From: Candidatus Bathycorpusculum acetigenes
GTDB taxonomy: Archaea > Thermoproteota > Bathyarchaeia > Bathyarchaeales > Bathycorpusculaceae
Assembly: GCA_009781675.1 (NCBI GenBank)
Contig: WQVG01000010.1
Span: 1 to 35,776, forward strand
DNA length: 35,776 bases
Direction: 5' to 3'
Part shown: one piece after another, positions 4,152-35,115 of the stretch
Layout of the letters: the number at the start of each line of letters is the position of its first letter
Position numbering within the stretch: position 1 is the first letter of the stretch
Position numbers and translations under genes: made by a program
Notes under the pieces: generated by a model
Seen by the model: only the letters and a program-made list of their open reading frames with translations
Databases searched by the model: none
Told to the model about the DNA's origin: nothing

Positions 4152-5480
4152 TTATTCGTAATATGCAATCCAGCCGTTTGCAAAGGCTACCAGGTCATTG
4201 AAATCGATTTTACCATCTGGAAGACCATTTGGTCCACTGATGTCAGCATAAGGATTCAATAGATGGTTGGGTCCATAGTATTCTATCCAAGCATTTGCAA
4301 AATACACCAGATCCTCGAAGTCAACAATGCCATCGGGAACAGTCTGAGTCCCAACAGAACGATTAGGATTACCCGAGGATGCACCCGCAAAATCTATCCG
4401 ATTCATCGTTATGAAACCGTCGTTTACTAGATAGTCATCGTGTGCTTTGATGAAGCTGATCCAGAGAGATTTCACAGCGTCAGGAGTGGTTGCAGATGGG
4501 ATGCCGTCCATAAAGTAGTAGAGAGGGCGAATGATGGTGGCGGGGGTAGATTGATCGGTGACATAGGATCCGCCTTTAACGTTGGCAACGCTTGGGCTGA
4601 TGTATGTGCGGGTTGTGGGGTTGTAGAGGCTTAGGGGTATGATGCCGTTTGGATGAGAGGCGCCTAAGTCATTTTGGACAAAGCCTAAGCCGACAAAGCC
4701 GATGGCGTATTGGTTTTGTGGTTGGCGCATTGCAGTCATGACGTTTGCGTTGGAGGTTAGGGGTTGATAGTTTGATGGAAGCCAGTTACCTGCTGTTTGT
4801 TCTGTTTGGACGTTGTATGCCATGTTGTAGCCAAAAGCATTTAAGAAGAAGGTGTTAAAGCCGTCAAATGTCCCTGAGGAGTATTCTCTGCCGATGCGGC
4901 CAATGGTTTGGCTGGCGACACCTGTGGGGAGTGTTACAGGTGGAACCTGTGCATTTGCCCAGTCACCCCAAGTCGCATACAGGGGGACGTTGTTGCCATT
5001 TGCGGTTGTTCTAAAGAGATCTGCAACTTGAGAAGCAGAAGCTTGAGAGAGCCAAGTGTTTGTGGCTGGGACGACGATGGCGATGCTGTCATAGCCAATT
5101 AAGAATTCTTGTGGATTGGTGATTGTTGAACCAGATAAGGGATAAGTTGTACCATAAAAACCTGAGTTAGCGCCTGATCTTGATGAGGCGGCGATGTCTG
5201 CGGTTGGAGGGTTATCCTTTAGTGCGTTTAGACCTGCACCGCTTCCCAAGTCGTTTAGAGTGACTGTGGTCGCAGTGAAGGGTGAACCTAGAGCTAAGAC
5301 ATGTGACTGAAATGCAGTGGTTGCCTGTGAGCTGATTGGATAGATGGTTGAGCTACCAAGAACATAAAGACGGCCGGGAGTTACTAGCGGTGTTTGTGCG
5401 TGAGTTGGAAGTGCCGAAAACAGTGAGACTGTAAAGAGTGCTACCATGATTGCACATATTACTGGTTTAGATGTTTTCAA
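4152..5480 (-). CDS. pstS: PstS-type phosphate-binding protein fused to a dockerin-like domain
   Basis: The 442-aa product is a periplasmic-type phosphate-binding protein of the Pst ABC importer. It has a signal peptide (about residues 1-28), then the family hallmark LGSSTIYPISSQ near residue 43, DIAASSR, and a SSGTFDGFNTFF segment, all typical of PstS. Unusually, the last 65 or so residues form a duplicated dockerin-like module: VPDGIVDFEDLVYFANAWI, then LPDGKIDFNDLVAFANGWI. The start is TTG with GGAG about 10 nt upstream. It is divergent from pstC, and the two share a palindrome-rich intergenic region, consistent with phosphate-responsive control. The first dockerin loop lacks the usual first acidic residue, so calcium binding there may be weak. 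Confidence 0.88.
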   Translation of the reverse strand: MKTSKPVICAIMVALFTVSLFSALPTHAQTPLVTPGRLYVLGSSTIYPISSQATTAFQSHVLALGSPFTATTVTLNDLGSGAGLNALKDNPPTADIAASSRSGANSGFYGTTYPLSGSTITNPQEFLIGYDSIAIVVPATNTWLSQASASQVADLFRTTANGNNVPLYATWGDWANAQVPPVTLPTGVASQTIGRIGREYSSGTFDGFNTFFLNAFGYNMAYNVQTEQTAGNWLPSNYQPLTSNANVMTAMRQPQNQYAIGFVGLGFVQNDLGASHPNGIIPLSLYNPTTRTYISPSVANVKGGSYVTDQSTPATIIRPLYYFMDGIPSATTPDAVKSLWISFIKAHDDYLVNDGFITMNRIDFAGASSGNPNRSVGTQTVPDGIVDFEDLVYFANAWIEYYGPNHLLNPYADISGPNGLPDGKIDFNDLVAFANGWIAYYE

Positions 5481-5505
5481 ATTTGTTTTCTCCTTTTTCT
5501 ATTAG

Positions 5506-5523
5506 TGAACGATTACTCGTTCA
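5506..5523. promoter_or_regulatory. Palindromic operator candidate upstream of pstS
   Basis: A perfect inverted repeat with 7-bp arms (TGAACGA, spacer TTAC, TCGTTCA) sits 26 nt upstream of the pstS start. Its position in the divergent pstS/pstC intergenic region suggests a binding site for a dimeric regulator. No regulator gene is present in the window. Confidence 0.5.
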
Positions 5524-5560
5524 ACAAGTAGTGGTTTAGCTCAGAATATGTTTCTTATCG

Positions 5561-5592
5561 ATATAGTCTACCTGCAGATGTTTAGACTATAT
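5561..5592. promoter_or_regulatory. Inverted repeat overlapping TATA-like sequence in the pst divergent promoter
   Basis: Two 10-bp arms (ATATAGTCTA and TAGACTATAT) form a perfect inverted repeat with a 12-nt spacer. Each arm contains a TATAT core that could serve as a TATA element. Related TAGAC pentamers recur on the plus strand at 5611, 5652 and 5661, and CTATAGTC occurs at 5619. A repressor or activator binding several copies could switch both pst promoters together. Confidence 0.5.
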
Positions 5593-5711
5593 ACAATCCA
5601 TCCTGAAAAATAGACGAGCTATAGTCAATTATAGGCCTAAATATCAATAAGTAGACACTGTAGACAACCGTTATCTGCCCCAAAACCACTGTAGCGCAAG
5701 GGAGAAAAGCC

Positions 5712-6596
5712 ATCAAAATCGAAAGGAAATATTTCCAAGATCATCTAGTTCAAGTAATAGTCCTCATCTGCGCCGCCGTATCAGTAGTAGCAGTCTTGGC
5801 GATATTTTACTCCTTATTACATGATGGATACCCAGTCATTTCAGATTGGCTCTTAAATGGTTTTAGAATGAAATGGATCCCTCACCAGGGAATATATGGA
5901 CCAATCCCATTGGTTGTCAATACGTTTAATGTTGGTATTGGATGTACCATAGTCGCTACAATAATTGGAGTCCCCACAGCAATATATTTAGCAGAGTTCG
6001 CAGATAACCGCTTGCGGAACATTATAAAACCTTCTTTAGAAATTTTAACTGGATTTCCCTCAATAATACTCGGGATAGTTGGGCTCACCATAATAGTCAC
6101 AGCTATAACAACAGTTGCTGGTCCTCCGGCTGGGGGAGGGTTGCTTGCAATATGGATTGTTGTAGGAATAATGTCACTTCCAACAGTTGCAACTATATCT
6201 GAAGATGCAATAAGAGCTGTGCCTAAGGATCTCAAAGAAGCATCCTTGGGCCTTGGCGCGACTCGATGGCAAACTATGACCAGAGTCACAGTACCTGTAG
6301 CTAGCCCAGGAATCTTGGCAGCCATTCTTCTAGGAATGGGAAACGCAATCGGCGAAACAATGGCAGCATTTTACATATCAGGTATACAAGACCCATCGGC
6401 GATTGCGACAGACCCTATACGTGGAGTCGCATCGATCTCTGTACAAATCGCACAAGAGGCTATGAGCGAAACAAGAGCTATGACTCCATATTTTGGATTG
6501 GGGTTCCTACTCTTCTTCATTATTGGGGTACTAAATCTGATAATTAGAAGATTAAGTAAAGAACAATTAGCAGTAGATCCACCAAGGAATCGGTGA
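5712..6596 (+). CDS. pstC: Phosphate ABC transporter permease PstC (start codon uncertain)
   Basis: This is an inner-membrane permease subunit of the phosphate importer. Several membrane segments are visible, and the ABC-permease EAA loop is clear (EASLGLGATRWQT, then a VPVASPGILAAILLG segment). The first canonical in-frame start is TTG at 5796, but that would remove the first membrane helix, which reads through in frame from about 5710 (IKIERKYFQDHLVQVIVLIC and onward). Back to the stop codon at 5661-5663 there is no in-frame ATG, GTG or TTG. A GGGAGA site at 5700-5705 sits about 6 nt before an ATC at 5712, which I use as a tentative start. The stop overlaps the pstA start region. Confidence 0.82.
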   Translation: MKIERKYFQDHLVQVIVLICAAVSVVAVLAIFYSLLHDGYPVISDWLLNGFRMKWIPHQGIYGPIPLVVNTFNVGIGCTIVATIIGVPTAIYLAEFADNRLRNIIKPSLEILTGFPSIILGIVGLTIIVTAITTVAGPPAGGGLLAIWIVVGIMSLPTVATISEDAIRAVPKDLKEASLGLGATRWQTMTRVTVPVASPGILAAILLGMGNAIGETMAAFYISGIQDPSAIATDPIRGVASISVQIAQEAMSETRAMTPYFGLGFLLFFIIGVLNLIIRRLSKEQLAVDPPRNR

Positions 6597-10013: not shown

Positions 10014-10296
10014 ACCTACACAAAACTCAAAATAAAACTATTAGTCAAATGCAAACAACTCAACTTATGACGCTAATAATTGTGAATAATGCACAATAAG
10101 TTTAGACTGGAATGCCAAGGTTTTAACAGCGTAAGCCACAGAGGCGAGTATAAACTAAAAATATCTAATCTATCTATTACAGGAACCATGTACGCCCTCC
10201 TTCTCTATACCCCAATACGCCGGCTCAATTAGCAAGTAGACTAAGATGCATGTTTGAGAAAGGGCAAGCAAGAAGCGCTTATAAGCCGTCTGTTGA
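10014..10296. other. Intergenic stretch without a supported gene
   Basis: Only very short open frames are seen between the 39-aa ORF and the promoter of the 254-aa gene. There is no tRNA cloverleaf, CRISPR-like repeat or long hairpin. An AT-rich GTATAAAC at about 10149 could be a stray TATA box. Confidence 0.4.
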
Positions 10297-10304
10297 ATAT
10301 AAAT
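10297..10304 (+). promoter_or_regulatory. TATA box for the 254-aa gene
   Basis: ATATAAAT centred about 24 nt upstream of the ATG at 10324 fits the archaeal TATA-to-start distance. No ribosome site lies between, so a leaderless transcript is likely. Confidence 0.5.
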
Positions 10305-10323
10305 AATCACTGGGATTTATCGT

Positions 10324-11088
10324 ATGAAACAGTTTCTTCTAACACCCTCAGCAGGGAAACGTCTAATCGCAAAGGCCCTTGCCATCCATCCATCAGTTCA
10401 GCATGCCCTAAAAAGCGGCACCCTTGTTATAGTTGCAGGAACCACAAATGGCTATTTTGCTGAAGAAATCCTAATCAGTCGTGGTGTTCGAGATTTTTCT
10501 CGGCAGAGGTTTTTCCGGGGCGTAACGATGCCGCCTAATAGAGCCATAACCATAGAAGGGCGTTTACCTGATGAGAGCCAGTTTCCCGGTGATGTAATCA
10601 TCTCGGGTAATGTATGGCAAAGGGGCAAGAGCATTGGAGATGTTGTAAATACGCTTAGAGATGGTGATGTTATCGTTAAAGGTGCCAACGCTGTCGATTT
10701 GGTGCATAAGCAAGCGGCACTTCTAATTGGACATCCTAGAGCGGGAACAGCGGGATTGGCCTTGCCGGCTGTTTTTGGGCAACGGGTAAAACTCATAGTT
10801 GCCGCTGGGCTGGAAAAACGCATATCAGGTGACCTCCAGACGATAGCGTTGAAAATTAATGCCCCTGGTGTGGGAGGTTATCGTTTTTTGCCTCTGCCCG
10901 GGGAGCTATTTACTGAGCTTGAAGCGTTCAAGTTGCTCTGTGGTGCTGAGGCCGAGTTGATTGCCGCAGGGGGAGTTGATGGTGCAGAAGGCGCATGTTG
11001 GATAGCAATATCGGGCTCTGAGAATCAGGAGCACATGGCTGAACAAATCTATACATCCATAGCAAACGAACCGCCCTTCACACTCTAA
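10324..11088 (+). CDS. Conserved-looking protein of unknown function, 254 aa
   Basis: I do not recognise a named family. The protein is globular and soluble, with glycine-rich turns typical of an alpha/beta enzyme: LVIVAGTTNGYFAEE (about 36-50), GVTMPPNRAITIEGRLPDE (about 67-85), DVIVKGANAVDL (about 119-130), LIGHPRAGTAGLALP (about 137-151) and LIVAAGLEKR (about 160-169). KGANA, HPRAGTAG and GLEKR look like ligand-binding loops. There is no signal peptide or membrane helix. The ATG is 20 nt downstream of a TATA box. It ends one base before the convergent 74-aa gene. Confidence 0.75.
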   Translation: MKQFLLTPSAGKRLIAKALAIHPSVQHALKSGTLVIVAGTTNGYFAEEILISRGVRDFSRQRFFRGVTMPPNRAITIEGRLPDESQFPGDVIISGNVWQRGKSIGDVVNTLRDGDVIVKGANAVDLVHKQAALLIGHPRAGTAGLALPAVFGQRVKLIVAAGLEKRISGDLQTIALKINAPGVGGYRFLPLPGELFTELEAFKLLCGAEAELIAAGGVDGAEGACWIAISGSENQEHMAEQIYTSIANEPPFTL

Positions 11089-11313
11089 TTATGGGGTTAT
11101 TTCTTGTCCTGGGTGCACTATACCTGCAACAGATGCATCGGTTTGTTTATGTCTAAATCCGTTTTTTGAACCCGAACGCAGAGCACTCACACTTTGAGAA
11201 ACAGCATTAACCATGGTGTCGGTGTTTTCTTTAATCAGCTCCATGGCCGCTTGATTGACTTCCAATTCAACAGTCAGTCTTAGTTTTCCAGGTCCATTTT
11301 TATTTGCTTCCAT
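11089..11313 (-). CDS. Small protein of unknown function, 74 aa
   Basis: A strong ribosome site (GGAGGTGG, about 10 nt upstream of the ATG at 11313) makes this small frame credible. The N-terminal half (LRLTVELEVNQAAMELIKEN) looks like a beta strand followed by an amphipathic helix. The C-terminal third is polar and probably disordered. It is convergent with the 254-aa gene, the two coding regions directly abutting. A TTTAAGATA near 11371-11379 may be its TATA box. Confidence 0.6.
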   Translation of the reverse strand: MEANKNGPGKLRLTVELEVNQAAMELIKENTDTMVNAVSQSVSALRSGSKNGFRHKQTDASVAGIVHPGQEITP

Positions 11314-11530
11314 AAATAATCCACCTCCACAAAATCGTGCTGTCGGCTACTTTATGGGTTAACGATTAGGTATCTTAAACCTGAGTGGCTGCACCAATAC
11401 AGCAACAACAAAAAGCGATTAGACTGGACAGCTCCACACCAGGGCTTATTCCGGCCGAATTTCGAACCAGAGACACCTTGAACCATGCTCACTTTTTATA
11501 AAACGCTTAGATACGCCAGTAAAGGAAGAG

Positions 11531-12355
11531 TTAGGGCTTTGCCCAGTATTGGGCAAGAGCGTCGAGTGCGCTGTCAAAGAGGTAGTCAGTGGGGACTACA
11601 TTGACGTTTATGTTAAGCTCTTTTAGGGCTTGTGCGGTTGTGGGTCCGATGGCAACGGTTGTTACTTTTTCTGTGAGAGTTTGCTGTAATTGTTGCATGG
11701 ATGCTTTTTCGGTGAGCATTTTGAAGATGTTTTTGGCGCTCAATCCACTGCCAAACAGTATGGCGTTTATATGTCCTTCTGTGAGGTCTTGGTAGAATTT
11801 GGTTTTGAGGGCTTCATCTATGGGTAGGCCTGATTCATAGACATAAATTTCTTCGACATCAGCACCCATTTGTTGGAGGGTCTCAGTTAGGGTGGGGGAG
11901 GCGTTGCTGGTGCGGGGGATACGAAATGTTTTGTTTTTGAGGTTGGTGCTTGAGAGGGCTTCAAGTAGGCCGTCGCTGCTGTATTTTTGTGGAATCATGT
12001 CCACACGGACGCCTTTTTCTTTTAGGGCTTCGGCAGTTTTGGGGCCGACTGCAATGATGCAGGAGTTTTTTAGGCCTTCATAGAGTTGGGGGGTTTGTTT
12101 GAGTTCTTCTGTGGCACTAAAGAGGTGCTTGACGCCGTTTGTGCTCATCAATGCGACATAATCTATGGTGTTTTTTTGGAGTTCAGTTATGAATTTTTTG
12201 AGGGGTTGGGGGTTGTTTAGGGGTTTTATTTCTATGGCTGGGATGTAGTAGGGGATTCCGCCTTTTGCTTTGATGAGTTCGCCTGCTTCTTGGGCTTGGC
12301 CGATGGGGCGGGTTATGGCGATGGTGCGGCCTTTTAGAGGGGTTTTTTGAACCAT
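11531..12355 (-). CDS. hemD: Uroporphyrinogen-III synthase
   Basis: The 274-aa product fits HemD, which closes and inverts ring D of hydroxymethylbilane to give uroporphyrinogen III. The family is poorly conserved, but the two-lobed pattern is visible: KGRTIAITRPIGQAQEAGELI at the N-terminus, DYVALMSTNGVKHLF near 95-110, AVGPKTAEAL, a YESGLP segment, NAILFGSGLSAKNIF and AIGPTTAQAL near the end. It is the last gene of the leftward heme-precursor operon, overlapping the cobA stop by 22 nt and sitting three genes after hemL and hemC, which supports the assignment. Confidence 0.9.
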   Translation of the reverse strand: MVQKTPLKGRTIAITRPIGQAQEAGELIKAKGGIPYYIPAIEIKPLNNPQPLKKFITELQKNTIDYVALMSTNGVKHLFSATEELKQTPQLYEGLKNSCIIAVGPKTAEALKEKGVRVDMIPQKYSSDGLLEALSSTNLKNKTFRIPRTSNASPTLTETLQQMGADVEEIYVYESGLPIDEALKTKFYQDLTEGHINAILFGSGLSAKNIFKMLTEKASMQQLQQTLTEKVTTVAIGPTTAQALKELNINVNVVPTDYLFDSALDALAQYWAKP

Positions 12356-13089
12356 GTTAGTTTCCTGCCTAATTTTGCGACGTCTCCGATGATGATAACG
12401 GCTGGGGGTTTTATGTTTCTAGTTTGGGCCTCTTTTATGATAGTATCTAGGGTGGCTATGAGGGTGCGTTGTTGGGGGAGGGTGCCTGATTCAATCATGG
12501 CTATGGGTTTTTGTGGGTCTATGCCGCCATCGAGGAGTTTTTTAACGATACCTTGGAGGGATTCGACGCCCATGAGAATGACCATGGTGTCGACTGCGCT
12601 GGCGATTTTTATCCAGTCTATGGGTTTGTCGGCGTCTCCTGCGCGGTGGCCAGTTATGATAGCAACAGAGGCGGCGTAGTCTCGGTGTGTGAGGGGTATG
12701 CCTGCATAGGCGGGTGCGGCAACTGCGGAGCTAACGCCGGGTACATATTCAAATGTGATGCCTTCTGTGAGTAGGGCTTGGGCTTCTTCGCCGCCTCGGC
12801 CAAAAATGAAGGGGTCGCCGCCTTTGAGGCGCACCACTTGGCTACCTTGTTTGGCTTTCTCTATTATGAGTTCGGTGATTTTGTCTTGGGGTACTTCGTG
12901 GAGTCCGCTACGTTTACCCACAAAAATCCGTTCGGCGTTTGGGGGTGCCATAGCTAGGATTTCTTCGCTGACGCCTAAGCGGTCATAGATAACTACGTCT
13001 GCGGTTTTTATTATTTCAACTGCTTTGATGGTTAGCAGTTGGGGGTCGCCGGGGCCGGCGCCGACTAGAAAGACTCTACCATACGCCAT
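12334..13089 (-). CDS. cobA: Uroporphyrinogen-III C-methyltransferase (SUMT)
   Basis: The enzyme methylates uroporphyrinogen III at C2 and C7 with SAM to give precorrin-2, the branch point to siroheme, heme (alternative route) and cobalamin. At 251 aa it is the stand-alone CobA form, not the CysG fusion. Hallmarks are VFLVGAGPGDPQLLTIKA at the N-terminus, VIYDRLG, VRLKGGDPFIFGRGGEE near residues 82-98, and a VPGVSSA motif. It overlaps hemC upstream and hemD downstream, so it belongs to the same transcript. SirC, encoded in the same operon, uses its product. Confidence 0.95.
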   Translation of the reverse strand: MAYGRVFLVGAGPGDPQLLTIKAVEIIKTADVVIYDRLGVSEEILAMAPPNAERIFVGKRSGLHEVPQDKITELIIEKAKQGSQVVRLKGGDPFIFGRGGEEAQALLTEGITFEYVPGVSSAVAAPAYAGIPLTHRDYAASVAIITGHRAGDADKPIDWIKIASAVDTMVILMGVESLQGIVKKLLDGGIDPQKPIAMIESGTLPQQRTLIATLDTIIKEAQTRNIKPPAVIIIGDVAKLGRKLTWFKKPL

Positions 13090-14014
13090 ATTTTTCTCTC
13101 CATTGTTTCTCGTAGTCTTTTGCGCCCTGCTTGATTAGTTCTTCGCCCACTATTGTGCCTAGTTCTGTGGCTTGGTTGAGGGGGCCTTTTGTTTGGGCGC
13201 TGATTTTTTTTTGGTCATTTAGTGAGAAGATGCTACCCCAAAGGGTGAGCTGGTTTTCTTGGACTTTGGCAACTGCGCCTATGGGGACGCGGCAACCGCC
13301 TTCGAGTTTGAGCACCAAGCTGCGTTCAGCTGTGATTTCGGCTCGGCTGTTTGGGTCGTCGACTGTTTGTAAGAGGGTGATGATTTTTGTGTTGTTTTCT
13401 TTGGCGGTGAGGGCTATAGCGCCTTGGCCGGCTGCGGAGGGGAATTGTTCGAGTGAGAGGGGTTGGTGGGTGATTTGGTTGGTTATGTTTAGGCGTTCTA
13501 GGCCGGCTTGGGCGATGACTATGCCGGCGAGTTCACCGTTGTGGACTTTATTTATGCGGGTATCGATGTTGCCGCGGATGGGTTGTATGTCGAGGTCTGG
13601 TCGGAGGTATTTGATTTGTGCTAAACGGCGTAGACTGCCGGTGCCAACGGTGGCGCCATGGGGCAGGTCTTTGAGGGGGACGTTGTTGTGGGATATGAAT
13701 ACGTCGTTTGGGGAGTCGCGTTTGGGAATGGCGGCTATTACTGTTCCGGTTTGTATCTCCACGATGGGTACGTCTTTTAGGCTATGCACAGCGAAGTCGA
13801 TTTCTCCGCTGACGACTTGTTGGTCGATTTCTCGTTCAAAGATGCCTTTGGCATCGATGCTAAAGAGGGGTTTGCCGTGTTCTTTGTCGCCTATGGTGTG
13901 GATGATTTTGAGTTCAAATTCTATGTTTGGGTTTTTGGTTTTTATCCAGTTTAGGGTGCGGTTGGTTTGGGTTAGGGCTAGTTTGCTGCCTCGGGTGCCG
14001 ACGGTGAGTTTCAT
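13076..14014 (-). CDS. hemC: Porphobilinogen deaminase (hydroxymethylbilane synthase)
   Basis: HemC polymerises four porphobilinogens into hydroxymethylbilane. The 312-aa length is usual. Visible motifs are GTRGSKLALTQT at the start, AVHSLKDVP with the catalytic Asp81, GTGSLRRLAQ, RGNIDTR, and EGGCRVPIGA, in which Cys241 should hold the dipyrromethane cofactor. It overlaps hemL by 4 nt and cobA by 14 nt, which is tight operon packing. Confidence 0.97.
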   Translation of the reverse strand: MKLTVGTRGSKLALTQTNRTLNWIKTKNPNIEFELKIIHTIGDKEHGKPLFSIDAKGIFEREIDQQVVSGEIDFAVHSLKDVPIVEIQTGTVIAAIPKRDSPNDVFISHNNVPLKDLPHGATVGTGSLRRLAQIKYLRPDLDIQPIRGNIDTRINKVHNGELAGIVIAQAGLERLNITNQITHQPLSLEQFPSAAGQGAIALTAKENNTKIITLLQTVDDPNSRAEITAERSLVLKLEGGCRVPIGAVAKVQENQLTLWGSIFSLNDQKKISAQTKGPLNQATELGTIVGEELIKQGAKDYEKQWREKYGVW

Positions 14015-15312
14015 GGGGGGTTCCTCGTTTTAGCGGCTGCTTTGAGGGCGCAGTCAAAGGCGTTTGTGGTGAATTTGAGGTCGGTTTCTGTGTGTGCTTC
14101 GGAGATAAAGCAGGTTTCGTATTGAGAGGGGGGAATGAACACGCCTTGTTTGAGTAGTTCGTGGAAGTAGGCGCTAAACATGGCGGGGTTGCTTTGCTTG
14201 GCGCTGTCATAGTCGGTTATGGTTTGGGGGGTGAAAAAAATTTGATAGAGCGATGCGATACTGTGGATCTGTACAGGTAATTTGTAGTTTGTGGTTTGAT
14301 CGGTGAGGGTTTTTTTGAGTTCGATGGTGTTTTTTTCGAGTTTGGGGTAGAGTTGGTTTTTGTTTTTAGAGAGATAACTAAGAGTTGCCATACCGGCCGT
14401 TGCTGAGATTGGGTTACCGCTAAAGGTTCCTGCTTGGTACACCTTGCCTGCGGGGCTTATGGTTTGCATGATTTCGGTTTTGCCGCCAAAGGCTGCTAAG
14501 GGAAAGCCGCCGCCTAAGACTTTGCCCAGGGTTGCCATATCGGGTTTGACTCCGAAGTATTCTTGGGCACCGCCCAAGGCGAGACGGAAGCCTGTGATGA
14601 TTTCATCAAAGATCAAAACGGTGCCATAGGTTTGGGTTATTTTTCTTAGGCTTTCCAGGTAGCCTGATTTGGGTAGAATTAATCCCACGTTGGCCATCAC
14701 TGGTTCAACTATCACGGCTGCGATGTTTGGGCTCTCAGTTCTAAAGGTGTTCTCTATGGCTTCGAGATTGTTGTAGGGCAACACGAGGGTGTTTTGGATG
14801 GATTCTTGGGGAACACCCAACGAGTTAGGTGCGCCAAAGGTTGCAGCCCCTGAGCCGGCTTTGACTAGCACGTTATCGTGACTACCATGGAAGCATCCGT
14901 CAAATTTGATGATTTTTTTACGGTTGGTGTAGCCTCGGGCGGCTCGGATGGCATGCATGGTGGCTTCGGTGCCGGTGCTTACAAGGCGCATCATTTCCAT
15001 GCAGGGGGAGGCTTGGCTTATGGCTTCGGCGAATTGGACTTCGAGTTCGGTTGGGGCACCATAGAGGGTGCCTCTTGGGAGTTGGGCTTTGATGGCTTCG
15101 AGAATTTCTGGTTGGGCATGTCCTAGAAGTAGCGCACCGTAGGCCATGCAGTAGTCTAGGTATTTTTTGCCGTCGGCATCATAGAGTTTGGAGCCCTGAG
15201 CGCATTCCACAAAGAAGGGGTAGGGTTCAAATGCTCGGACAGGACTGTTTACGCCGCCGGGTAGGGTTTTTTTGGCTCGTTCATAGAGCAACATAGATTT
15301 GGGTTCGGTCAA
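14011..15312 (-). CDS. hemL: Glutamate-1-semialdehyde 2,1-aminomutase
   Basis: This PLP enzyme converts glutamate-1-semialdehyde, made by HemA, into 5-aminolevulinate. The 433-aa length is standard. Motifs are PGGVNSPVRAF near residue 18, FDGCFHGSHDNVLVKAGSG near 137-155, FDEIITGFR at 235-243, and the PLP lysine K264 in LGKVLGGGFP. It overlaps hemB (upstream) and hemC (downstream) by 4 nt each. Its substrate supplier HemA is encoded at the head of the divergent operon. Confidence 0.97.
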   Translation of the reverse strand: MTEPKSMLLYERAKKTLPGGVNSPVRAFEPYPFFVECAQGSKLYDADGKKYLDYCMAYGALLLGHAQPEILEAIKAQLPRGTLYGAPTELEVQFAEAISQASPCMEMMRLVSTGTEATMHAIRAARGYTNRKKIIKFDGCFHGSHDNVLVKAGSGAATFGAPNSLGVPQESIQNTLVLPYNNLEAIENTFRTESPNIAAVIVEPVMANVGLILPKSGYLESLRKITQTYGTVLIFDEIITGFRLALGGAQEYFGVKPDMATLGKVLGGGFPLAAFGGKTEIMQTISPAGKVYQAGTFSGNPISATAGMATLSYLSKNKNQLYPKLEKNTIELKKTLTDQTTNYKLPVQIHSIASLYQIFFTPQTITDYDSAKQSNPAMFSAYFHELLKQGVFIPPSQYETCFISEAHTETDLKFTTNAFDCALKAAAKTRNPP

Positions 15313-16289
15313 GACTGAGTCAACCAGGATTTTACATCTTTAGCATGATAGGTTATGATTAGGTCTGCGCCGGCGCGTTTTAGACTGATTAGGATTTCGC
15401 GGATGATTGTTTGCTCGTCTATCCAGCCGTTTTGTGCGGCGGCTTTGACCATACTGTACTCTCCGCTTACATTGTAGGCAACCACCGGTACATTAAAGCT
15501 GGCTTTGGCTAGGGTGATAATATCTAGGTATGCTAGGGCTGGTTTGATCATGACCATGTCTGCGCCCTCAGCAATGTCGAGTTCAATTTCGCGGAGTGCC
15601 TCTTGGGGGTTACCTGGGTTCATTTGGTAGCTGTGTCGGTTACCAAATTTGGGTGTGGATTCTGCGGCGTCTCGGAATGGACCATAGAAGCCTGAAGCAT
15701 ATTTGGCGGCATAGGCAATAATGGGGATTTGATCGTAGCCTGCTTCGTCGAGAGCTTCTCGGATGGCTGTGATTTGGCCGTCCATCATGGCTGAGGGGGC
15801 GACTATGTCGATGCCTGCTTGGGCATAGCTGACAGCTGTTTTTGCTAAAAGTGCTATGGTGGGGTCGTTTTGGATTTCATTATCTTTGACTATTCCGCAG
15901 TGTCCATGACTCATGTATTCGCAGAGGCAAACATCGCCGATAATAACGAGTTCGTCTCCGCAGGCTTTTTTGAGTAGACGGATGGCTTGTTGGATAATAC
16001 CCTCTGGGGCATAGGCACTTGTGGCTGTCTCATCTTTTTTGGCGGGAATCCCAAACAGAAGCACACCTTTGATGCCTTGTGCCAATGCGGCTTTGGCTTC
16101 TGCTACAACCATCGAGAGCGGTAACCGGCTGTATCCGGGCATCGATTCGATGGGTGTGGGTGTTTTGAGGTTTTCCTCAACAAATATGGGGTAGATTAGA
16201 TGTGCGGGGTTGAGGGTGATTGGGTTGAGCATATCGCGTAGGGCTTGAGTTTTGCGCAGTCTACGCATGCGCACAGTGGGAAAACTCAT
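15309..16289 (-). CDS. hemB: Porphobilinogen synthase (5-aminolevulinate dehydratase)
   Basis: HemB condenses two 5-aminolevulinates to porphobilinogen. The 326-aa protein shows the zinc-type cysteine site (Cys121, Cys123, Cys131 in DVCLCEYMSHGHCG). Both Schiff-base lysines are visible: K196 in AYAAKYASGFYGPFRDA and K249 in MVMIKPALAYLD. It is therefore predicted to be the zinc-dependent form. It overlaps sirC and hemL by 4 nt each. Confidence 0.97.
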   Translation of the reverse strand: MSFPTVRMRRLRKTQALRDMLNPITLNPAHLIYPIFVEENLKTPTPIESMPGYSRLPLSMVVAEAKAALAQGIKGVLLFGIPAKKDETATSAYAPEGIIQQAIRLLKKACGDELVIIGDVCLCEYMSHGHCGIVKDNEIQNDPTIALLAKTAVSYAQAGIDIVAPSAMMDGQITAIREALDEAGYDQIPIIAYAAKYASGFYGPFRDAAESTPKFGNRHSYQMNPGNPQEALREIELDIAEGADMVMIKPALAYLDIITLAKASFNVPVVAYNVSGEYSMVKAAAQNGWIDEQTIIREILISLKRAGADLIITYHAKDVKSWLTQS

Positions 16290-22710: not shown

Positions 22711-23316
22711 TATGACAAAGAACTGGGCTTACAAAACACCCGGAATCCCCGACGAAGCATTCAATCAAGCGACGCGGTTCCGGGACCAACAAAAGAAGAA
22801 ATTCGAATAGTTACCATAGCTAAAGCACACCTAAACGAGGGCGCAGTCGTGATTGATGTAGGTTGCGGCACAGGCGGCTTAACCGTCGAAGCGGCAATAC
22901 AGGTCGGCACAAAGGGCAAAGTATATGCCATCGACGAAGACCCCGTTGCTGTGGACTTGACAAAAAGTAATGTAGGGAAATTTGGAGTGGAAAACACTAC
23001 AATAATCACTAGGGGAAAAGCCCCTGAAGCGCTCTTGACTCTGCCCAGCGCAGATGCGGTATTTATAGGGGGAGGGGGGCTTGCTCTAAGAGCAACTATC
23101 CAAACAGTTCACTATAAACTCAAAACCGGCGGCAGAATCGTTATAAATGCCATATTACTGGAAACGGCAACTACTGCAATTGCTGAATTGAGGGCTTTGG
23201 GCTATAGAGATATTGACGTGGCCGATATTTCAGTGGCAAAGGGAAAGCAAATAAACAGCGGGACTATGATGATGGCAAGAAATCCAGTGACCATAGTTTC
23301 AGCGACAAAACTCTGA
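22711..23316 (+). CDS. cbiT: Cobalt-precorrin-6B C15-methyltransferase (decarboxylating)
   Basis: CbiT methylates C15 and removes the acetate carboxyl at C12. The SAM-binding motif VVIDVGCGTGGLTVEAA, then VYAIDEDP, VFIGGGG and the C-terminal GTMMMARNPV are as in the family. I choose ATG 22711 because it gives the expected N-terminus (MTKNWAYKTP) and the frame stays open to the stop. GTG 22849 would remove the conserved AVPGPTKEEIR region. Residues 11-20 (RNPRRSIQSS) do not fit, while the +1 frame reads GIPDEAF, the expected sequence. This points to two compensating indels or sequence errors. The overall frame is intact. Confidence 0.88.
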   Translation, partial: YDKELGLQNTRNPRRSIQSSDAVPGPTKEEIRIVTIAKAHLNEGAVVIDVGCGTGGLTVEAAIQVGTKGKVYAIDEDPVAVDLTKSNVGKFGVENTTIITRGKAPEALLTLPSADAVFIGGGGLALRATIQTVHYKLKTGGRIVINAILLETATTAIAELRALGYRDIDVADISVAKGKQINSGTMMMARNPVTIVSATKL

Positions 23317-28183: not shown

Positions 28184-29506
28184 TCACCGCACATATTTCA
28201 CCATATTAAGTATATCTTCAATGATAGTCAGGACACCATTAAAACCCATTAAAGGACGATTTGTAAGGGTGACTCGTTCATAGTATGGAAAAGTTATAGG
28301 GATAAATTGTGGGGGATTTGAAAGTCTCAGAGAAACATTTTTTTCAATACTACTCCCTAAGAGTAATTTGGGTGTTGTTTTGTTAAAACAATCCAGCAAC
28401 TCATACTGGTCAGGGTTAACAAGTACAGAAGTGTCTAGCATATTAGCGGATAGATATTTTTTTATAGATTCAAAATTTTTTGTACCTACTTCTTTAATGC
28501 CCACAACAACAGGCAACATTCCCAAGTATTCGTAGAGAAAAGTTGTCAGAGCATAAACCTGTGAGGAATCGCCAAAAATAGCAAAGGGCATACCTCTGAG
28601 ACTACTAGTAAAAGAGAAGGCGTGGGCAAGAGCGGGATAACATTTTTTTCGGACACGACTGGATTCGTTGGTTATGGATTCGCTGGAGGTATCAAAAAAG
28701 TCGGCGACTGCTTTGAACCATGCTTCAGAGGCAGATAGACCATAGGGAGCCTGCAGACCTAAATTGATATTTGGGATACCATGTACAGTTTCTAGGTAAG
28801 AAACGATTCTGTCACCGTATTCTTCGTTGAGAACTAAGTTAAGTTCAGCTTGACTAGCTTTTTGTATGTTAGCTATAGATTCGCCTGCGCAGATGACAGA
28901 TACTGTTTGAATGCCAAGAAGTTTAAGTATCCGTTTGATTTCAGCGATGTCATTTTCCCAGTTATAATGAAAGAGTGTACTGCCGATTATGTTAACGGTT
29001 CGAGAGATTTTTTGATTGTTTCTATTTATTATACCATCCAGAATTTTGATGACTGCATCTTGGAATCCAGATGCATATGTTCCGGTGAAGCCTGTACTAT
29101 CGATGGCAACTGTTATGGGGTTAATGTTTGTGTTTTGGATGATGCGGGTTAAGTCATCACCGATAAGTGAGGTGCCTGAGTGATTGATGACACCTATGAT
29201 ACCGGGTTTGCTTTGTTCGAGCTGTTTTAGGGCTTGAGTGACTTTGGATTCACTACCATATATGAAGTCGGTCTCGTCTATGTAGGTGCAGGGGATTCTT
29301 GTTTGACCGAAATAGAAATCAGCAAAATAGTTGATGTCAACAGGTTTGGGGTGAGATGCCAATATACTTGACATGTAAGCGGGGTAGGTTTTGCAACCTA
29401 TGGGACCATTGAGAAGTGTACATGCTTCTTGAATGCCTTCAAAGGCGGCTATGGCGCCTATGAGAGAATCGGGACGGTGAGAAGCTTTTGAGGAATTATT
29501 CATCAT
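28184..29506 (-). CDS. Nitrogenase component 1-like protein (NifD/K family, second subunit)
   Basis: The product (about 440 aa) belongs to the oxidoreductase family of NifDK, BchNB and CfbD. Visible features, counted from the alternative TTG start at 29524, are [17 protein letters not shown] (Cys35, Cys44), [17 protein letters not shown], and [12 protein letters not shown], the family's IGDD turn. Of the three usual cluster-ligand cysteines of NifD only the middle one (GPIGC) is kept. The first position is in DSLIGA, and the third (before IGDD) is Ser/His. It is therefore probably the partner subunit of the fused NifD-like domain upstream, as BchB is to BchN. ATG 29506 overlaps the stop of the fusion gene in an ATGATGAATAA arrangement. 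Confidence 0.85.
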
Positions 29507-31655
29507 ATCGCCAGCCTTCGACAAAAGGGATTTTTAATTTCAAGTTGAGCTCTTTAGCATAGTCTAATCCAATGTTAAAACCATACGGGGGGAGTACTGG
29601 GAAGGAGACACAAGGAATATCTGTGGTTAGAGTACGAGCAGATAAAATAAAATCGGGATGATTCAAACATACCGCTTTTTCTATGTAGTCTGCTGTATAG
29701 TTTGCTTCGAGTTTAGGTAGTGTTCTCTCTTCGGGGGCGAATATGTTAAAGGCGTTAATTTGGGTTACTTCAACGTCTAGAGCACTTAGGGTAGAGTGTA
29801 GCCAGTCGATGTTAGCTCCGTTGGAATTGATTAAAGCTTTCTTTCCTGCAAAACGCGGTTTTAATTGTTCTATTTCTTTTTTGTATGTTGTTTGGGCTTC
29901 TGTGATAAGTTTTTCTGCCAAGGCTTCTTTACCAAATCTTTGTGCAACCGTACGAGTGAACTTGACGGTCTGTTCAAAGCCGATCGGCATTGGAATTTGG
30001 AGTGTTTGGGTACCGAAGTGTTTGTCTAAAAATGTGCAAAGGGCATCGATTGTCGGTCCGTTTGTTGCAGGCAAGTTAACTTTTGCTTTTTTGAAGTTTT
30101 TTATTTCATCTATGTTGGTTTGTCTGATGTAGCGGCAGTTTATTTTTATGCCTAAGGCGGTTAAGATGTGATTTATTGTTTGAAAGTTTTGGTTAGCGGT
30201 GGTAGCGAGGTTTTGTTCGCCAATGAGGTTTACAGTGTCATCGAGGGGGTTAAGGGTTTTGTCTATGAATTGTTCTGCGATTAACTGACAGGCAGTAAGC
30301 AGACCTGAATAGAAGTCTCCGCCCATTACGCCATCGGAGGGAATGTGGAGGATTCTTTGGTTGTTTGTGTTTAATTTTGATATTAGCGAGTTTATGTCGT
30401 CGCCAATTAATCCTGCAGTGCAGGCGGTTATTAGAAAAATCGGTTGTGTGGGAAACCTTTTTTTGATATACATTAAGCTGTCTTCTATGTTTTTTGTTCC
30501 GCCAAATATCACGTCGGTTTCCTGCATATTTGTGCATAGGAGGTTGGGAAGATCTATGGGATATGTGTCAGGGGGTACTTTTTGGTGTATGCAGTAGCTA
30601 ATGTAGGCGCAACCTTGAGGGGAATCCATCAGAGCGGTCGCATCGTTGATTTGATTTATGATGTTATAGGCACCAGTGAGTGAGCAACCATATACGGGTA
30701 TACGTTCCTTTGGAGTTAGGGTTTGAGCGGTTGGTTTGTTTGCAGTGTTATTTTTTGAGTTAGTGGTGTTTTGGCTGGTTGTTTGTTTGGGGGGGTTATT
30801 GTTTATTGGGGTTTGAGTGGGATGGGGAGGGTTTATTTGGGGTTTTGTGTTATAGCAGAATTCGTGGAGGAAGTCTTCGAGTTCTGTTTCTGAGAGGGGG
30901 ATGGGTATTACGGGGTTTGAGTGGTGTTCGATGTGGTTGGCGATTGTTGAGTAGATGTTGGCTAGTTCAGTGTTGGGAGCAAATTCTAGGATGGTTTTAG
31001 AGTTAAGTTCTGCTTGGGGAATGAGTTCACTGCGGGGGATAAAGGCGATTAGTTGGGTGCCTATTTTTTTAGCAAATTCTTCTAACACTTGGCGTTCATT
31101 GTTTGTTCCTCGTTGGTTGCCTATTATGCCGCCGAGTTTCCCATGGGTGGATGTGAATCTTTGCAGACCTTTTGCTATGTTGTTGGCCGCATAGATGGAT
31201 GCTATTTCGCCTGATGATACAATGTATATTTCGTCGGCGTATCCTTCTCGCATTGGAACAGCAAAGCCGCCACAGACAACGTCGCCTAGGACATCGAAGA
31301 ATACGTAGTCAAATTGATTGGTGTCTAGACCTTGGTCTTTGAGGAGTTGGAGGGTTTGAATTATGCCCCTGCCAGCGCAGCCTACGCCTGGTTCGGGACC
31401 TCCAGATTCGATGCATTTTACTTGGTTATAGCCAGTCAGCATCACTGTATCAAGGGAGACTACGCCAGTTCGGGTTAGTTGTTCAAGTACTGTTGTTTGT
31501 GTGAAGCCTCCTAGGAGTAGACGAGCTGAGTCGTGTTTAGGGTCGCAACCTATTTGGAGGATTTTTTTACCCTTCAAGGATAGTGCGGCGATAACATTAG
31601 AGATGGTTGTGGATTTGCCGATGCCGCCTTTGCCATAAAAAGCGATGCCTTTCAA
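29496..31655 (-). CDS. NifH-NifD-like fusion (nitrogenase-superfamily reductase plus catalytic subunit)
   Basis: The 719-aa protein joins two normally separate components. Residues 1-270 are a NifH/BchL-type iron protein: P-loop [10 protein letters not shown] (8-17), DPKHDS, and the [4Fe-4S] ligands Cys93 ([12 protein letters not shown]) and Cys128 ([11 protein letters not shown]). Residues 272-316 are a Pro/Asn/Thr-rich linker. Residues 320-719 are NifD-like with all three cluster cysteines: Cys324 (YGCSLTGA), Cys349 (SPQGCAY) and Cys412 ([11 protein letters not shown]). It should couple ATP hydrolysis to low-potential reduction of a substrate that is not known. The TTG start overlaps the ABC ATPase stop (TTGA) and has GGAG upstream. 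Confidence 0.88.
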
Positions 31656-32986
31656 TGACTAATCTCCTTTAGTTCAGCTATCACTGTCGTTATCGGTGGA
31701 GGGGAAATCGTTTTGTTGGGGACATGTTTTTTGGCTAAACAATTGAGTGTAGCCAAGAGGGTGGTTTCATCTTTAACTGAGGTTATGCCTTTGTTTTTGA
31801 GGAGTTGGATTTTTTCTTGTGCTTGGCCTTTTGTGTAATCCCGTAACCCTATGAGGCAGGTATATTCATCTAACATAAAAGTAGGGATGCCTTGTTCGAC
31901 AGCATAGAGGGCTGCGTCTAGATTTTTAATGTTACCGTAGCCGTATGGGAAAGAGGTTACGATAACGAAATCGGCTTTTTTTATTAATTGCAGGTTATTG
32001 TTGTGGGCAGTTTCACTGATTGGAGACATGGGGGCTTCGATTGTTATGGGTATTTTTAGAAAGTTTGCGGTTTCTTGGTCTGTATCGAGCAGGTTTAAGA
32101 CTCCTGCAGTTACGTTGTAGCCGTCGTCGATTAGTTGTTTCATAAGTGAGCTACCGCTTCCTGCTCCGCAGATTATATGGATAGTTAAGCTACGTTTGGG
32201 TGCTTCATGGTTAATTGATAGAGGAATTATGTATGGTGTTTTTGTTATGGAATTTTGCTTTATGATGGTGTCTATGTTAAAAATTGTTTTAATGTTTTCG
32301 CTTGTTAAGATATCGGTATTTCCGGTAGCGACTATTTTTCCGTTTTTTAATAGTATCAAAGAGTCACAGTATCGTGCGGCAAGGTTAAAATCGTGAAATA
32401 CGCCTACAACTACGAGTTTTTTATCTTCACATAATCGTTTGAGCAGATCCATTATTTCGAGTTGGTTGGCTACATCAAGAAAGGTAGTAGGTTCATCAAG
32501 GAGTAGTACTTGTGGTTCTTGGGCTAGGGCTCGGCTTATAATGATACGCTGGCGTTCGCCTCCGCTTAATTCAGTTATTAAGCGGTCTTGGAGGTGCAAT
32601 GTTCCGGTATAAGCCATTGCGTTTTTTGCGATAGCTACGTCTTTTTCGCCCTCTATGGCAAAACGGGAAAGATGCGGCGAACGCCCCATTAATACCACAT
32701 CTATGGCAGTAAAGCTAAATGCAACAGTGGTTCCTTGGGAGACAACTGCCATTTGTTTAGCTACATCTATGGCTTTCATGTCATAGATATCTTGGTCTTG
32801 GAGAAGGATTGTACCTACTTTGGGTTTTAGGGTATGGCTTATGCTTTTGAGTAAAGTTGTTTTCCCTGACCCATTAGGTCCAAGAATGCCTACGAATTGC
32901 CCAGTTTGTGTGTGAAGGCTGATGTTTTCAATGATTTTTATTGATTCGTAATAGCAATCTATGTTGTTTACTTTTAATTCTACCAT
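31652..32986 (-). CDS. FecE/BtuD-type ABC transporter ATPase with extra C-terminal domain
   Basis: Residues 1-255 are a complete ABC ATPase of the iron-siderophore/heme/cobalamin class: Walker [10 protein letters not shown] (36-44), Q-loop VVSQG, signature [10 protein letters not shown] (139-148), Walker [10 protein letters not shown] (160-168) and the switch His in GVFHDFN. Residues 262-444 form an added Rossmann-like domain ([57 protein letters not shown]) that I cannot name. GTG 32995 is an alternative start, but ATG 32986 with GTGAT upstream gives the family N-terminus. It lies between the permease and the NifHD fusion, overlapping the latter. Confidence 0.9.
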
Positions 32987-32995
32987 GTTTATCAC

Positions 32996-34084
32996 TTATG
33001 AAGCATCAACTTTTTTCTTTCTTCGCATAAGATAGAGGAAAAATGGTCCGCCGCAAACGGCAGTTATTACACCAACAGGTAACTCTGAGGGCGCTATTAC
33101 GATTCTTGCCAAAGTGTCACATAGCACAAGAAAAGTAGCACCCATTAAAGCGGATGCGATTATTAGAATTCGATGGTCAGGAGAAAATAGCAAACGAGCC
33201 AAGTGGGGAATGATTAGGCCTACAAACGCGATTAATCCACCGACTGACACAGCTGCGGCGGTTACAAACGCACTAGCTACTAGGAGAATTTTTTTCAGTC
33301 TTTCAAGATCTACGCCTAAATGAGTAGATTCAGATTCGCCAAGTGAGAGAAGATTTAGGTCACGGGCAAACATATAGATGACCACAGAACCGCCTATTAT
33401 AAAGAGCAGTGCATTCCAAAAGTCAGACCACATTGTGTATGAGAAGCTACCCATAAGCCAGAAAGATGTCTGGCGAAATTTATCAGGAAACAGGGAATGA
33501 TACGCGTTAACAATCGCGCCAAACAAAATACTGACAGCGATACCTGAGAGAAGGAGAGTTTGCACCGGAACTTTATTTCCCACTCTTGAGAGGGCATATA
33601 CGCCAAACACTGTTAACAAACAACCTACGAACGCAAAAAGCGGCATCGTGCTTATGCCCAATACAGTTATGCTAACTCCAAGAATAACAGAAGATGTTGC
33701 ACCCAAAGCTGCTCCGGATGAGGCCCCGATTGTATAGGGGTCAGCCATTGGATTTCTAAACAGCCCTTGATAGGCGGCTCCTGCAATAGATAAACCAGCG
33801 CCCACAAGCGCGGCACATAAAGCCCTTGGAAAACGCACCTGAAGAATCAGCGCGGTTTCAATTGGTGAAACTGGAAAATCAACTAATCGGTTAAGTCCAG
33901 GGATATTTGTGAGAAACGCGCCAAGTATATTGGAAACGGGAATGTTGACATAACCTACACCTATAGATAGTAATATAGAACAAACTAATAGTCCAAAAAG
34001 CCCCAGAGCAATAAAGCGCCAGTTTTTGGTTTTTTGAGGGGAAATTAATTTTTTTAAAATGGTTGATTTAAGGTTATTCAACAT
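32996..34084 (-). CDS. FecCD/BtuC-family ABC transporter permease
   Basis: The 362-aa protein has about ten hydrophobic segments, as usual for permeases importing Fe-siderophores, heme or vitamin B12. The family signature GAAYQGLFRNPMADPYTIGASSGAALGA is present near residues 105-135, and GLIAFVGLIIPHLARLLFSPDHR near 285-310 is the ATPase-coupling region. The substrate cannot be told from the sequence. ATG 34084 has GAGGAG about 12 nt upstream. It follows the binding-protein gene by 35 nt. Confidence 0.93.
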   Translation of the reverse strand: MLNNLKSTILKKLISPQKTKNWRFIALGLFGLLVCSILLSIGVGYVNIPVSNILGAFLTNIPGLNRLVDFPVSPIETALILQVRFPRALCAALVGAGLSIAGAAYQGLFRNPMADPYTIGASSGAALGATSSVILGVSITVLGISTMPLFAFVGCLLTVFGVYALSRVGNKVPVQTLLLSGIAVSILFGAIVNAYHSLFPDKFRQTSFWLMGSFSYTMWSDFWNALLFIIGGSVVIYMFARDLNLLSLGESESTHLGVDLERLKKILLVASAFVTAAAVSVGGLIAFVGLIIPHLARLLFSPDHRILIIASALMGATFLVLCDTLARIVIAPSELPVGVITAVCGGPFFLYLMRRKKKVDAS

Positions 34085-34119
34085 CCGTGGGGGCTCCTCT
34101 AAAAAAGAAGGGGAAATAC

Positions 34120-35070
34120 TTAGGCAGTGCCAAAGATTTCTGGATGGAATATTTGGGAAAGTTCATCTAAAGCATTGATAGATCTGGGTCCGGGTCGTGA
34201 ATAGGTGCTGTCGTGACCTATGTTGTAGATTTGGGTATTTGTAACTGCAGTTATGCTTGACCAGCCGGGACGAGCCTTAAAACTGTTAATGGCGGTATAG
34301 CTTGAGAGTATTATATCAGGATTTTTTATTATGACACTTTCAGAGCCAATAACAGGATAAGCGGTTGCGGCGTCGTCAAAGATATTTATACCGCCAGTCA
34401 GGGTAACAAGGTCGCTTATATAACTGGTTGGACCCACAGACATTAATGGGTCATCAGATATTTCGATGTAAACTTTGGGCTTATCAGTTACTCCTGCGAC
34501 TTTATTTGTTACAGTACTGATACGGGTATTGAGGTCAGCCACTATTGCTGTGGCTTCATCAGCATGCCCAGTTGCTTTACCGACGGTAACAAGATTACCC
34601 AATACATCATTGATAGTTTGGGGGTTTAATACTATTACAGTATAGCCCATGTTGCGCAGTTTACTTGCCGCTTCATCGCTTGCTCCACCACCACTGGCAA
34701 TAACCAAATCAGGTTCTAGTGCAATTATGGGCTCTATTGCTGGCTGCCAGTAACTACCAATAGAACTCATTTTACCTTCTGCAATCCATTCAGCAAAATC
34801 GTAGGGGTAATCACAATAATCTGTAACACCAACAACTTGATCACCTGCACCAACAGCAAACAAAACCTCAGTAATGCTAGGTGCTAAAGAGACAATACGT
34901 TGAGGAACTGAGTTAATAGGCACTTCAGTACCATCATCATCAATTACAGTCACGAATTTACCATCACTGCCGTTGTTCTGCGGATCTGTATATAGAAACA
35001 CCAAAGAAACTGAAACTACAATTATTGCAAGAATTATTGCCACAATTAACCATAACTTTGTTTTTTGCAT
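34120..35070 (-). CDS. FecB/BtuF-type substrate-binding protein
   Basis: A membrane-anchored binding protein for the adjacent importer. An N-terminal hydrophobic segment (about residues 7-28) is followed by the two-lobed helical-backbone fold: RIVSLAPSITEVLFAVGAGDQVVGVTDYCDYP, then EPIIALEPDLVIASGG, VIVLNPQTINDV, and VEISDDPLMSVGPTSYISDLVTLTGG. The VTDYCDYP motif is frequent in cobalamin-type BtuF proteins but also occurs in others, so corrinoid is a guess. I prefer ATG 35070 (GGAGAGG 6 nt upstream) to TTG 35082. It is the first gene of the five-gene operon. Confidence 0.9.
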   Translation of the reverse strand: MQKTKLWLIVAIILAIIVVSVSLVFLYTDPQNNGSDGKFVTVIDDDGTEVPINSVPQRIVSLAPSITEVLFAVGAGDQVVGVTDYCDYPYDFAEWIAEGKMSSIGSYWQPAIEPIIALEPDLVIASGGGASDEAASKLRNMGYTVIVLNPQTINDVLGNLVTVGKATGHADEATAIVADLNTRISTVTNKVAGVTDKPKVYIEISDDPLMSVGPTSYISDLVTLTGGINIFDDAATAYPVIGSESVIIKNPDIILSSYTAINSFKARPGWSSITAVTNTQIYNIGHDSTYSRPGPRSINALDELSQIFHPEIFGTA

Positions 35071-35115
35071 GAGCCTCTCCAACTGTTAAGATTAAACGCT
35101 AAAACAACTAAACAA

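Follow-up and report, generated by a model that had tools for sequence, protein, structure and literature searches.

A BtuFCD-type importer operon of Candidatus Bathycorpusculum encodes a NifH-NifD fusion and a partner that may together reduce an imported corrinoid or related tetrapyrrole

Many nitrogenase-like proteins are encoded beside transporters, and since at least 2012 their substrates have stayed unassigned. The locus described here narrows that question: what would a nitrogenase-superfamily enzyme reduce when its genes share one operon with a BtuFCD-type importer? The DNA analysed, hereafter the window, is the 35,776-nucleotide stretch of contig WQVG01000010.1 from Candidatus Bathycorpusculum acetigenes (assembly GCA_009781675.1; genome of 2.14 Mb), whose genus is known in the literature as termite-gut Bathyarchaeia. 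An original prediction, made from the letters alone, had described five minus-strand genes encoding a FecBCD/BtuFCD importer, a NifH-NifD fusion and a NifD/K-like partner, and the open reading frames (ORFs) and Pfam matches at 28184-35082 bore this out. The operon is interpreted here as an importer combined with an ATP-driven [4Fe-4S] enzyme that would reduce a corrinoid or related tetrapyrrole brought into the cell, an interpretation that we favour tentatively, at just under an even chance, and in which the step from gene linkage to substrate is one that we infer.

All features of the operon lie on the minus strand. It begins with a BtuF-type substrate-binding protein of 320 aa with an N-terminal hydrophobic segment (34120..35082; Pfam Peripla_BP_2, E=2.4e-33), followed after a gap of 35 bp by a BtuC/FecCD-type importer permease of 362 aa (32996..34084; FecCD, E=3.6e-94). 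The permease gene abuts (0 bp) that of a BtuD-type importer ATPase of 447 aa with a C-terminal domain of ~185 aa (31652..32995; ABC_tran, E=9.5e-32), the stop codon of which overlaps the start of the fusion gene (aTTGAaa). The fusion (29496-31655) is a single ORF of 719 aa matching both Fer4_NifH and Oxidored_nitro in Pfam, and comprises a NifH-like domain (residues 1-268; 30852..31655; Fer4_NifH, E=5.8e-102), a low-complexity linker of variable length and sequence (residues 269-318; 30702..30851), and a NifD-like domain (residues 319-719; 29496..30701; Oxidored_nitro, E=3.6e-57). Its stop codon overlaps by ~11 bp the likely ATG start, at 29506, of the NifK-like partner, an ORF of 446 aa (28184..29524; Oxidored_nitro, E=9.8e-73). 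In an Rfam scan of the window, no family reached the gathering threshold.

Both proteins belong to the nitrogenase superfamily, with 341 bits for Fer4_NifH (cut-off 25) and 194.5 and 245.7 bits for Oxidored_nitro (cut-off 28.6). The NifH domain carries the P-loop GKGGIGKS and the [4Fe-4S] ligands C93 (GCAGRG) and C128 (VCGGF), all invariant across 10 aligned sequences. The ligand columns of the D and K subunits were aligned with Rhizobium and Desulfovibrio Nif, Roseobacter Bch, and Thermoproteota Cfb proteins as controls, which behaved as they should at the P-site and Cys275 columns. The D domain of the fusion has cysteines (C324, C349, and C412) at all three P-cluster columns and no equivalent of the iron-molybdenum cofactor (FeMoco) ligands Cys275 and His442; the His442 column was less well aligned in some controls, and the Cys275 result, repeated in a HMMER alignment to VnfD, is the firmer. 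The K partner has Asp, Cys44 (NGPIGC), and Ser at its P-cluster sites, and thus one of three cysteines, and the BchY and BchZ subunits of chlorophyllide a oxidoreductase (COR) showed Cys-Cys-Cys and Gly-Cys-Ser in the same alignment. This COR-type set, three cysteines in D and one in K without FeMoco ligands, was present in the D and K proteins of all aligned fusion loci. The original prediction that every iron-protein and NifD cluster cysteine is present therefore held for the NifH ligands and the three P-site cysteines of D, but not for the FeMoco ligands. The simplest prediction is that one [4Fe-4S] cluster would be held at the D/K interface by three D cysteines and one K cysteine, with no FeMoco-like cluster.

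In the trees, the H domain grouped as the sister of NifH at moderate support (89/91). D and K each made up a clade with full support and a long stem, and neither fell within the Cfb, Bch, Nif, or bacterial importer-linked groups. A place inside CfbCD or another characterised clade had been named beforehand as grounds for abandoning the original prediction, and the fusion fell inside none of them. With Mar sequences added, which were partial and came from structure-search alignments, the fusion D was weakly sister to MarD (SH-aLRT 81) and the K partner was unplaced; the deep branching order is unresolved, and long branches meet in both trees. The best solved-structure match of K was MarK. Assignment to CfbCD was rejected on scores (CfbC 346.6 bits against a cut-off of 402; CfbD ~29-34 against 268.4) and on separation in the trees, and assignment to COR by sequence was rejected likewise (BchX 175.5 against 331.2; BchZ 69.5 against 529; own clades). 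Mar was rejected on the site aligned to MarD Cys270, which is not a cysteine, and on the single P-site cysteine of K, and Isr on its cysteine pattern (3+1 here, not 1+3) and the lack of a radical-SAM gene in the operon. Searches with named families, on which all genome-wide absences reported here rest, detected no NifB, McrA, CfbCD, or second true NifH in the genome. The fusion is classed, by sequence, as a non-nitrogenase member of the superfamily in a distinct clade.

Ten genomes of the genus, among them that of the window, carry the fusion or its K partner; in one of these (G008) the N-terminal half of the fusion lies off the contig, and another (G021) is known from K only. The order BtuF-BtuC-BtuD-HD-K was intact in all eight genus genomes with readable flanks (window's own counted), and identity between the window and the relatives with importer-linked operons in the genus was 68-87%. 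Comparison of the window with three relatives gave dN/dS values of 0.11-0.14, indicating strong purifying selection; split by part against G028, the value was lowest in H (0.075), slightly higher in D (0.107), and highest in the linker (0.41). Since order and fusion recur in eight genus genomes at a dN/dS of ~0.12, the operon is not a product of chance. A scan of contigs by exact peptide patterns, which reaches close relatives only, matched the named relatives Candidatus Bathycorpusculum and Candidatus Bathyarchaeota DYS_1. No relative was found among viral contigs, and among the matches listed for the plasmid collection there were Nif/Bch-type or unfused relatives only. The relatives are mostly metagenome-assembled genomes, some of them fragmented, and an absence from a single genome is weak evidence.

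The fusion also occurs in two genomes of other genera, G171 and G216, the most distant holders. The proposed co-occurrence of fusion and importer held in all eight genus genomes with readable flanks but failed in these two, where no BtuFCD stands directly upstream, so the importer link was probably derived inside the genus. G171 has a FecCD-type gene just downstream of the fusion. G216 also has, elsewhere (L108 8563-13011), another nitrogenase-like set in the order D-K-H; it contains a Cys275 equivalent and is followed by a gene that starts like a NifB-type radical SAM protein.

The importer itself is of BtuFCD type by homology. The top NCBIfam match of the permease was BtuC (PRK09535, 317 bits), and that of the ATPase was the corrinoid ABC ATPase PRK09536 (322.7 bits across residues 6-348), both below their family cut-offs; the best solved relative of BtuF was the vitamin B12-binding protein 5ysc at 121 bits, compared with 62 for heme binders and 43 for enterochelin binders. 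It is accordingly a predicted corrinoid importer. A BtuD search of 28 genus genomes returned two classes: one of 78-100% identity confined to seven fusion holders, and one of ~50-57% in many others, with three fusion genomes (G002, G009, and G027) carrying both. In the tree, the fusion-linked BtuD formed its own clade (support 100/100), separate from the BtuFCD that is common in the genus and adjoins cbi and CbiMNQO genes, or CbiZ, or CbiA. This dedicated paralogue was present in seven of the nine fusion genomes and in none of the 19 without the fusion (Fisher p=3e-5, a value that treats genomes as independent and leaves shared ancestry uncorrected); the two assemblies lacking it, G008 and G021, have contigs that end inside the fusion or K.

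The nearest non-fusion relatives of the importer, in G072 and G078, stand beside a DUF71 protein and two radical-SAM proteins (annotated in G072), which resemble AhbC/AhbD/NirJ of heme biosynthesis and score below the family cut-offs. One branch of the DUF71 family is predicted to act in B12 salvage (PMC3541065). At the annotated locus (L148 5288-12961), the DUF71 gene is followed by BtuFCD and then by two AhbD/NirJ-like radical SAM/SPASM genes, and the ORFs of L152 match these in size.

How might such a system work? Outside the cell, BtuF would bind a corrinoid or a close tetrapyrrole relative, which BtuCD would then import. The fused NifH domains, dimerised around one [4Fe-4S] cluster, would hydrolyse ATP and supply low-potential electrons to the single cluster at the D/K interface, held by three cysteines of D and one of K as in COR. 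That cluster would then reduce a substrate in the cavity that holds FeMoco in nitrogenase. Possible outcomes are a reduced macrocycle, a central metal brought to a very low oxidation state (e.g., Co(I), ready for adenosylation), or a metal loosened by reduction. With H and D present 1:1 in the fusion, we infer an (HD)2K2 core with a single H dimer, compared with the two that can dock on nitrogenase. The substrate and the reaction are the least certain parts of this scheme. The more specific proposal, that the clade is an uncharacterised one serving salvage or breakdown rather than biosynthesis, with an importer-coupled, ATP-driven corrinoid or tetrapyrrole reductase (ring reduction, Co(I), or metal release) and one tethered H dimer per D2K2, is held more loosely, as a possibility that is rather doubtful as a whole.

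The exclusive BtuD paralogue, the B12-like BtuF, the COR-like ligands, the lack of a NifB match, the purifying selection, and the DUF71 and radical-SAM neighbours of the nearest importer relatives all count for a corrinoid or tetrapyrrole substrate, and the known [4Fe-4S]-only members DPOR and CfbCD reduce tetrapyrroles (PMC12552129). The wider neighbourhood also agrees with the tetrapyrrole or corrinoid context first proposed, with CobN, CbiZ, a second BtuCD, and the B12-type binding protein. In G028, G014, G027, and G026, a cluster of an ABC2 permease, CbiZ, CobN, and a second BtuD-BtuC lies ~8-15 kb from the operon, and it includes ChlID wherever the stretch read extends that far; the cluster is on another contig in the window's genome, and CobN, CbiZ, a second BtuCD, and ChlID occur on other contigs of G000, G009, G020, and G002.

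Several observations weigh against such a substrate. CobN was present in all seven importer-linked fusion genomes but also in nine of the 21 others (p=0.01), and it is therefore a weak partner. The G171 and G216 fusions without BtuFCD upstream fit the proposal poorly, and HdrB/HdrC-like genes stand upstream of the G216 fusion with an HdrA-like gene beyond (L107 9938-13805). AlphaFold models were of low confidence (pLDDT 53.7 for the fusion from 10 sequences and 53.3 for K from 12), leaving the cavity unreadable, and the substrate assignment is a prediction from homology and gene context. An importer-linked relative in Sporomusa sits in an apparent siderophore operon. Finally, Isr has neither Cys275 nor His442 and is reported to cleave isethionate (PMC11423573); since it acts on a small sulfonate, the missing FeMoco ligands are no proof of a tetrapyrrole substrate.

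The Sporomusa relative leads to the alternative that survives best, although we regard it as unlikely: that the operon serves iron acquisition, with the complex reducing or dismantling an imported ferric siderophore or heme chelate and freeing its iron. On the Sporomusa termitida plasmid pSPTER (L112 5735-13866), genes for a substrate-binding protein, two FecCD permeases, and an ATPase are followed by nifH, two component-1 genes, and an esterase-like gene with a weak enterochelin-esterase match, near TonB receptors that include one for a siderophore; the K protein there has no P-site cysteine. Treponeme relatives likewise adjoin FecCD-type importers, and ferric catecholates have very negative potentials, which was counted in favour of this explanation. 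However, the Sporomusa and treponeme proteins belong to other clades, with cysteine sets of 3+0 and 2+1, and they were rejected as the same enzyme on both grounds. The BtuF of the window reached 121 bits with the B12 binder, compared with 43-62 for binders of siderophores and heme, and the genes around the operon are corrin-related, with none for a siderophore or an esterase recognised in the window. As the treponeme, Sporomusa, and window clades are all importer-linked, importer linkage exists in several clades. On a Treponema contig (L059), a Mar-like D-K-H set (1769-5952) and an importer-linked set of another clade (10170-15914) lie ~4 kb apart.

A further alternative, along the lines suggested by Loh 2021 (PMC7886697), we consider improbable: that the complex performs a reductase step of the de novo tetrapyrrole pathway, e.g., that of the missing precorrin-6A reductase CbiJ, and that the importer is merely co-regulated. 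The operon is convergent with the cbi/hem locus in the window and in G028, and no CbiJ (PF02571) was detected in the genome; G488, a distant member of the Thermoproteota, has a different nitrogenase-like operon divergent from cbi genes. However, CbiJ went undetected in all 46 Bathyarchaeia genomes examined, and the control archaea M. acetivorans and H. volcanii had no PF02571 match either. CbiD was found in 18 of the 19 genus members without the fusion, though not in fusion-bearing G008. Because these fusion-less members keep CbiD without a CbiJ match, corrin synthesis in them does not depend on the fusion, and replacement of CbiJ is disfavoured. In G026 and G009, moreover, the cbi genes are on other contigs than the operon, so the adjoining large corrin locus of the original prediction stood for the window and G028 but not for these genomes.

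Three observations on corrin genes may be added. No CbiJ match turned up in any of the 46 Bathyarchaeia genomes, although most genus members keep CbiD. What looks like a frameshift near 22768 divides CbiT (22711-23316) of the window, with the first ~19 codons in another frame, whereas it is one intact ORF of ~201 aa in relatives; the split is either an assembly error or a real lesion. In G488, which belongs to another family, the unfused H-D-K set (L122 2293-9771) is of a different clade and divergent from CbiH, CbiG, CbiF, and CbiT-like genes.

We give little credence to an Isr- or Mar-like small-molecule reductase splitting a C-S or similar bond of an imported organic compound. It would fit the weak sister relation of the fusion D to MarD, the MarK match of K, and the example of Isr, which has a dedicated importer and no FeMoco ligands (PMC11423573). 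Mar, however, has Cys270 and a P-cluster (PMC12552129), while the fusion has no Cys270 equivalent and K lacks two of the three ligands; the operon has no radical-SAM B partner, the genome gave no NifB match, and the importer is BtuFCD-type, not Ssu/Tau. Very unlikely is a NifEN-like scaffold that builds or loads a metal cofactor from an imported metal, a coupling proposed in Dos Santos 2012 (PMC3464626). The transporter linkage and the close scores of D with NifE (122.6 bits) and the nitrogenase alpha-subunit subfamily (129.5 bits) speak for it, but no client nitrogenase or NifB was found in the genome, and NifE retains Cys275 in the alignment, unlike D. A functional nitrogenase (NifHDK, VnfHDK, or AnfHDK) can be dismissed almost entirely despite the sister position of H to NifH, because the FeMoco ligands and two of six P-cluster ligands are missing (one P-site cysteine in K), NifH and NifD scored 363.5 and 102.9 bits against equivalog cut-offs of 394.35 and 653.55, the TIGR NifK cut-off was also missed, and no NifB was found.

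A separate compact cluster occurs in other Bathyarchaeia genomes of this genus and its family; it consists of nifH, a NifB-like radical SAM gene, nifD, and nifK, plus a homocitrate-synthase-like gene where the locus is annotated (L035 9320-15044, L036 3561-9313, L037 8857-14713, L038 8820-14553, and L125 6678-12457). The NifB-like protein scored 330 bits against a cut-off of 343.65 (L036), D keeps Cys275, and the aligned subunits keep all P-cluster cysteines. A 2024 study reported nifHBDK as nitrogenase in Bathy-6, together with B12 synthesis and BtuFCD with CbiZ (PMC11697101). This cluster, already published and of a different gene set, was rejected as the same system as the fusion operon. 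Elsewhere in the window (4152-5480), a PstS-family phosphate-binding protein with a C-terminal dockerin-type domain (NF041540) is encoded beside PstC/PstA genes.

With a COR-like [4Fe-4S] reductase predicted from the cysteine set and a B12-type ligand suggested by the importer paralogue specific to the fusion, binding and reduction assays become direct. If the corrinoid or tetrapyrrole reading is true, the superfamily would gain a role in cofactor salvage, and the fused Fe-protein and catalytic subunits would offer a model for tethered Fe-protein docking. Surveys of termite guts based on nifH may be counting a gene that is non-diazotrophic.

The novelty of the locus is limited, and the suggestion that this type of arrangement was unknown was not supported. 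For Archaea, Firmicutes, and Deltaproteobacteria, Dos Santos 2012 (PMC3464626) describes fused nifH-nifE genes with nifN-like genes after them (a statement made there without showing data), and also nitrogenase-like genes beside ABC transporters, including those of Clostridium botulinum and Methanocorpusculum labreanum. NifH-NifD/E fusions of Methanomassiliicoccales, Methanosarcinales, and Methanomicrobiales appear in a 2024 survey (PMC11237513). These fusions share the H-E/D architecture, with a K/N-like gene next in the 2012 report; the accessible parts of both papers give no function or importer linkage for them. Loh 2021 (PMC7886697) mentions in one sentence a NifDH homologue in the termite-gut Bathyarchaeia TB1/TB2 and suggests a tetrapyrrole pathway. 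With the same termite-gut group and the same two Pfam domains, it is probably the same gene, and the operon, importer, ligands, tree, and distribution are not described in the accessible text. Within the openly readable literature, the scope covered here (subscription papers, including a 2020 review of divergent members, fall outside it), no description of the BtuFCD-HD-K operon, its exclusive importer paralogue, or its 3+1 cysteine set was found, and these three look new.

Among characterised enzymes, COR (BchXYZ) is alike in having a D-type subunit with three P-site cysteines, a K-type subunit with one, and no FeMoco ligands, but its reductase gene is separate, it has no importer, its role is biosynthetic, and the clades are separate. 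CfbCD, the Ni-sirohydrochlorin a,c-diamide reductase, is likewise archaeal with [4Fe-4S] clusters and acts on a tetrapyrrole, but it has no K subunit, and CfbD falls outside all fusion D and K sequences. MarHDK provides the closest solved match of K and the weak sister of the fusion D, but the ligands of its P-cluster and of its [Fe8S9C] cluster with Cys270 (PMC12552129) are missing in the fusion and K. IsrBHDK with SsuCAB (PMC11423573) shares a dedicated ABC importer and the lack of Cys275 and His442, but it has 1+3 cysteines, needs a radical-SAM protein, uses a sulfonate importer, and is unfused. In treponemes and other bacteria, genes for H, D, and K-like proteins adjoin importers of FecCD or Opp type, several of FecBCD/BtuFCD type, but those of treponemes and Sporomusa are unfused, and their 2+1 and 3+0 cysteine sets match the 'red' and 'light blue' clades of Dos Santos 2012 (PMC3464626), separate from the clade of the fusion.

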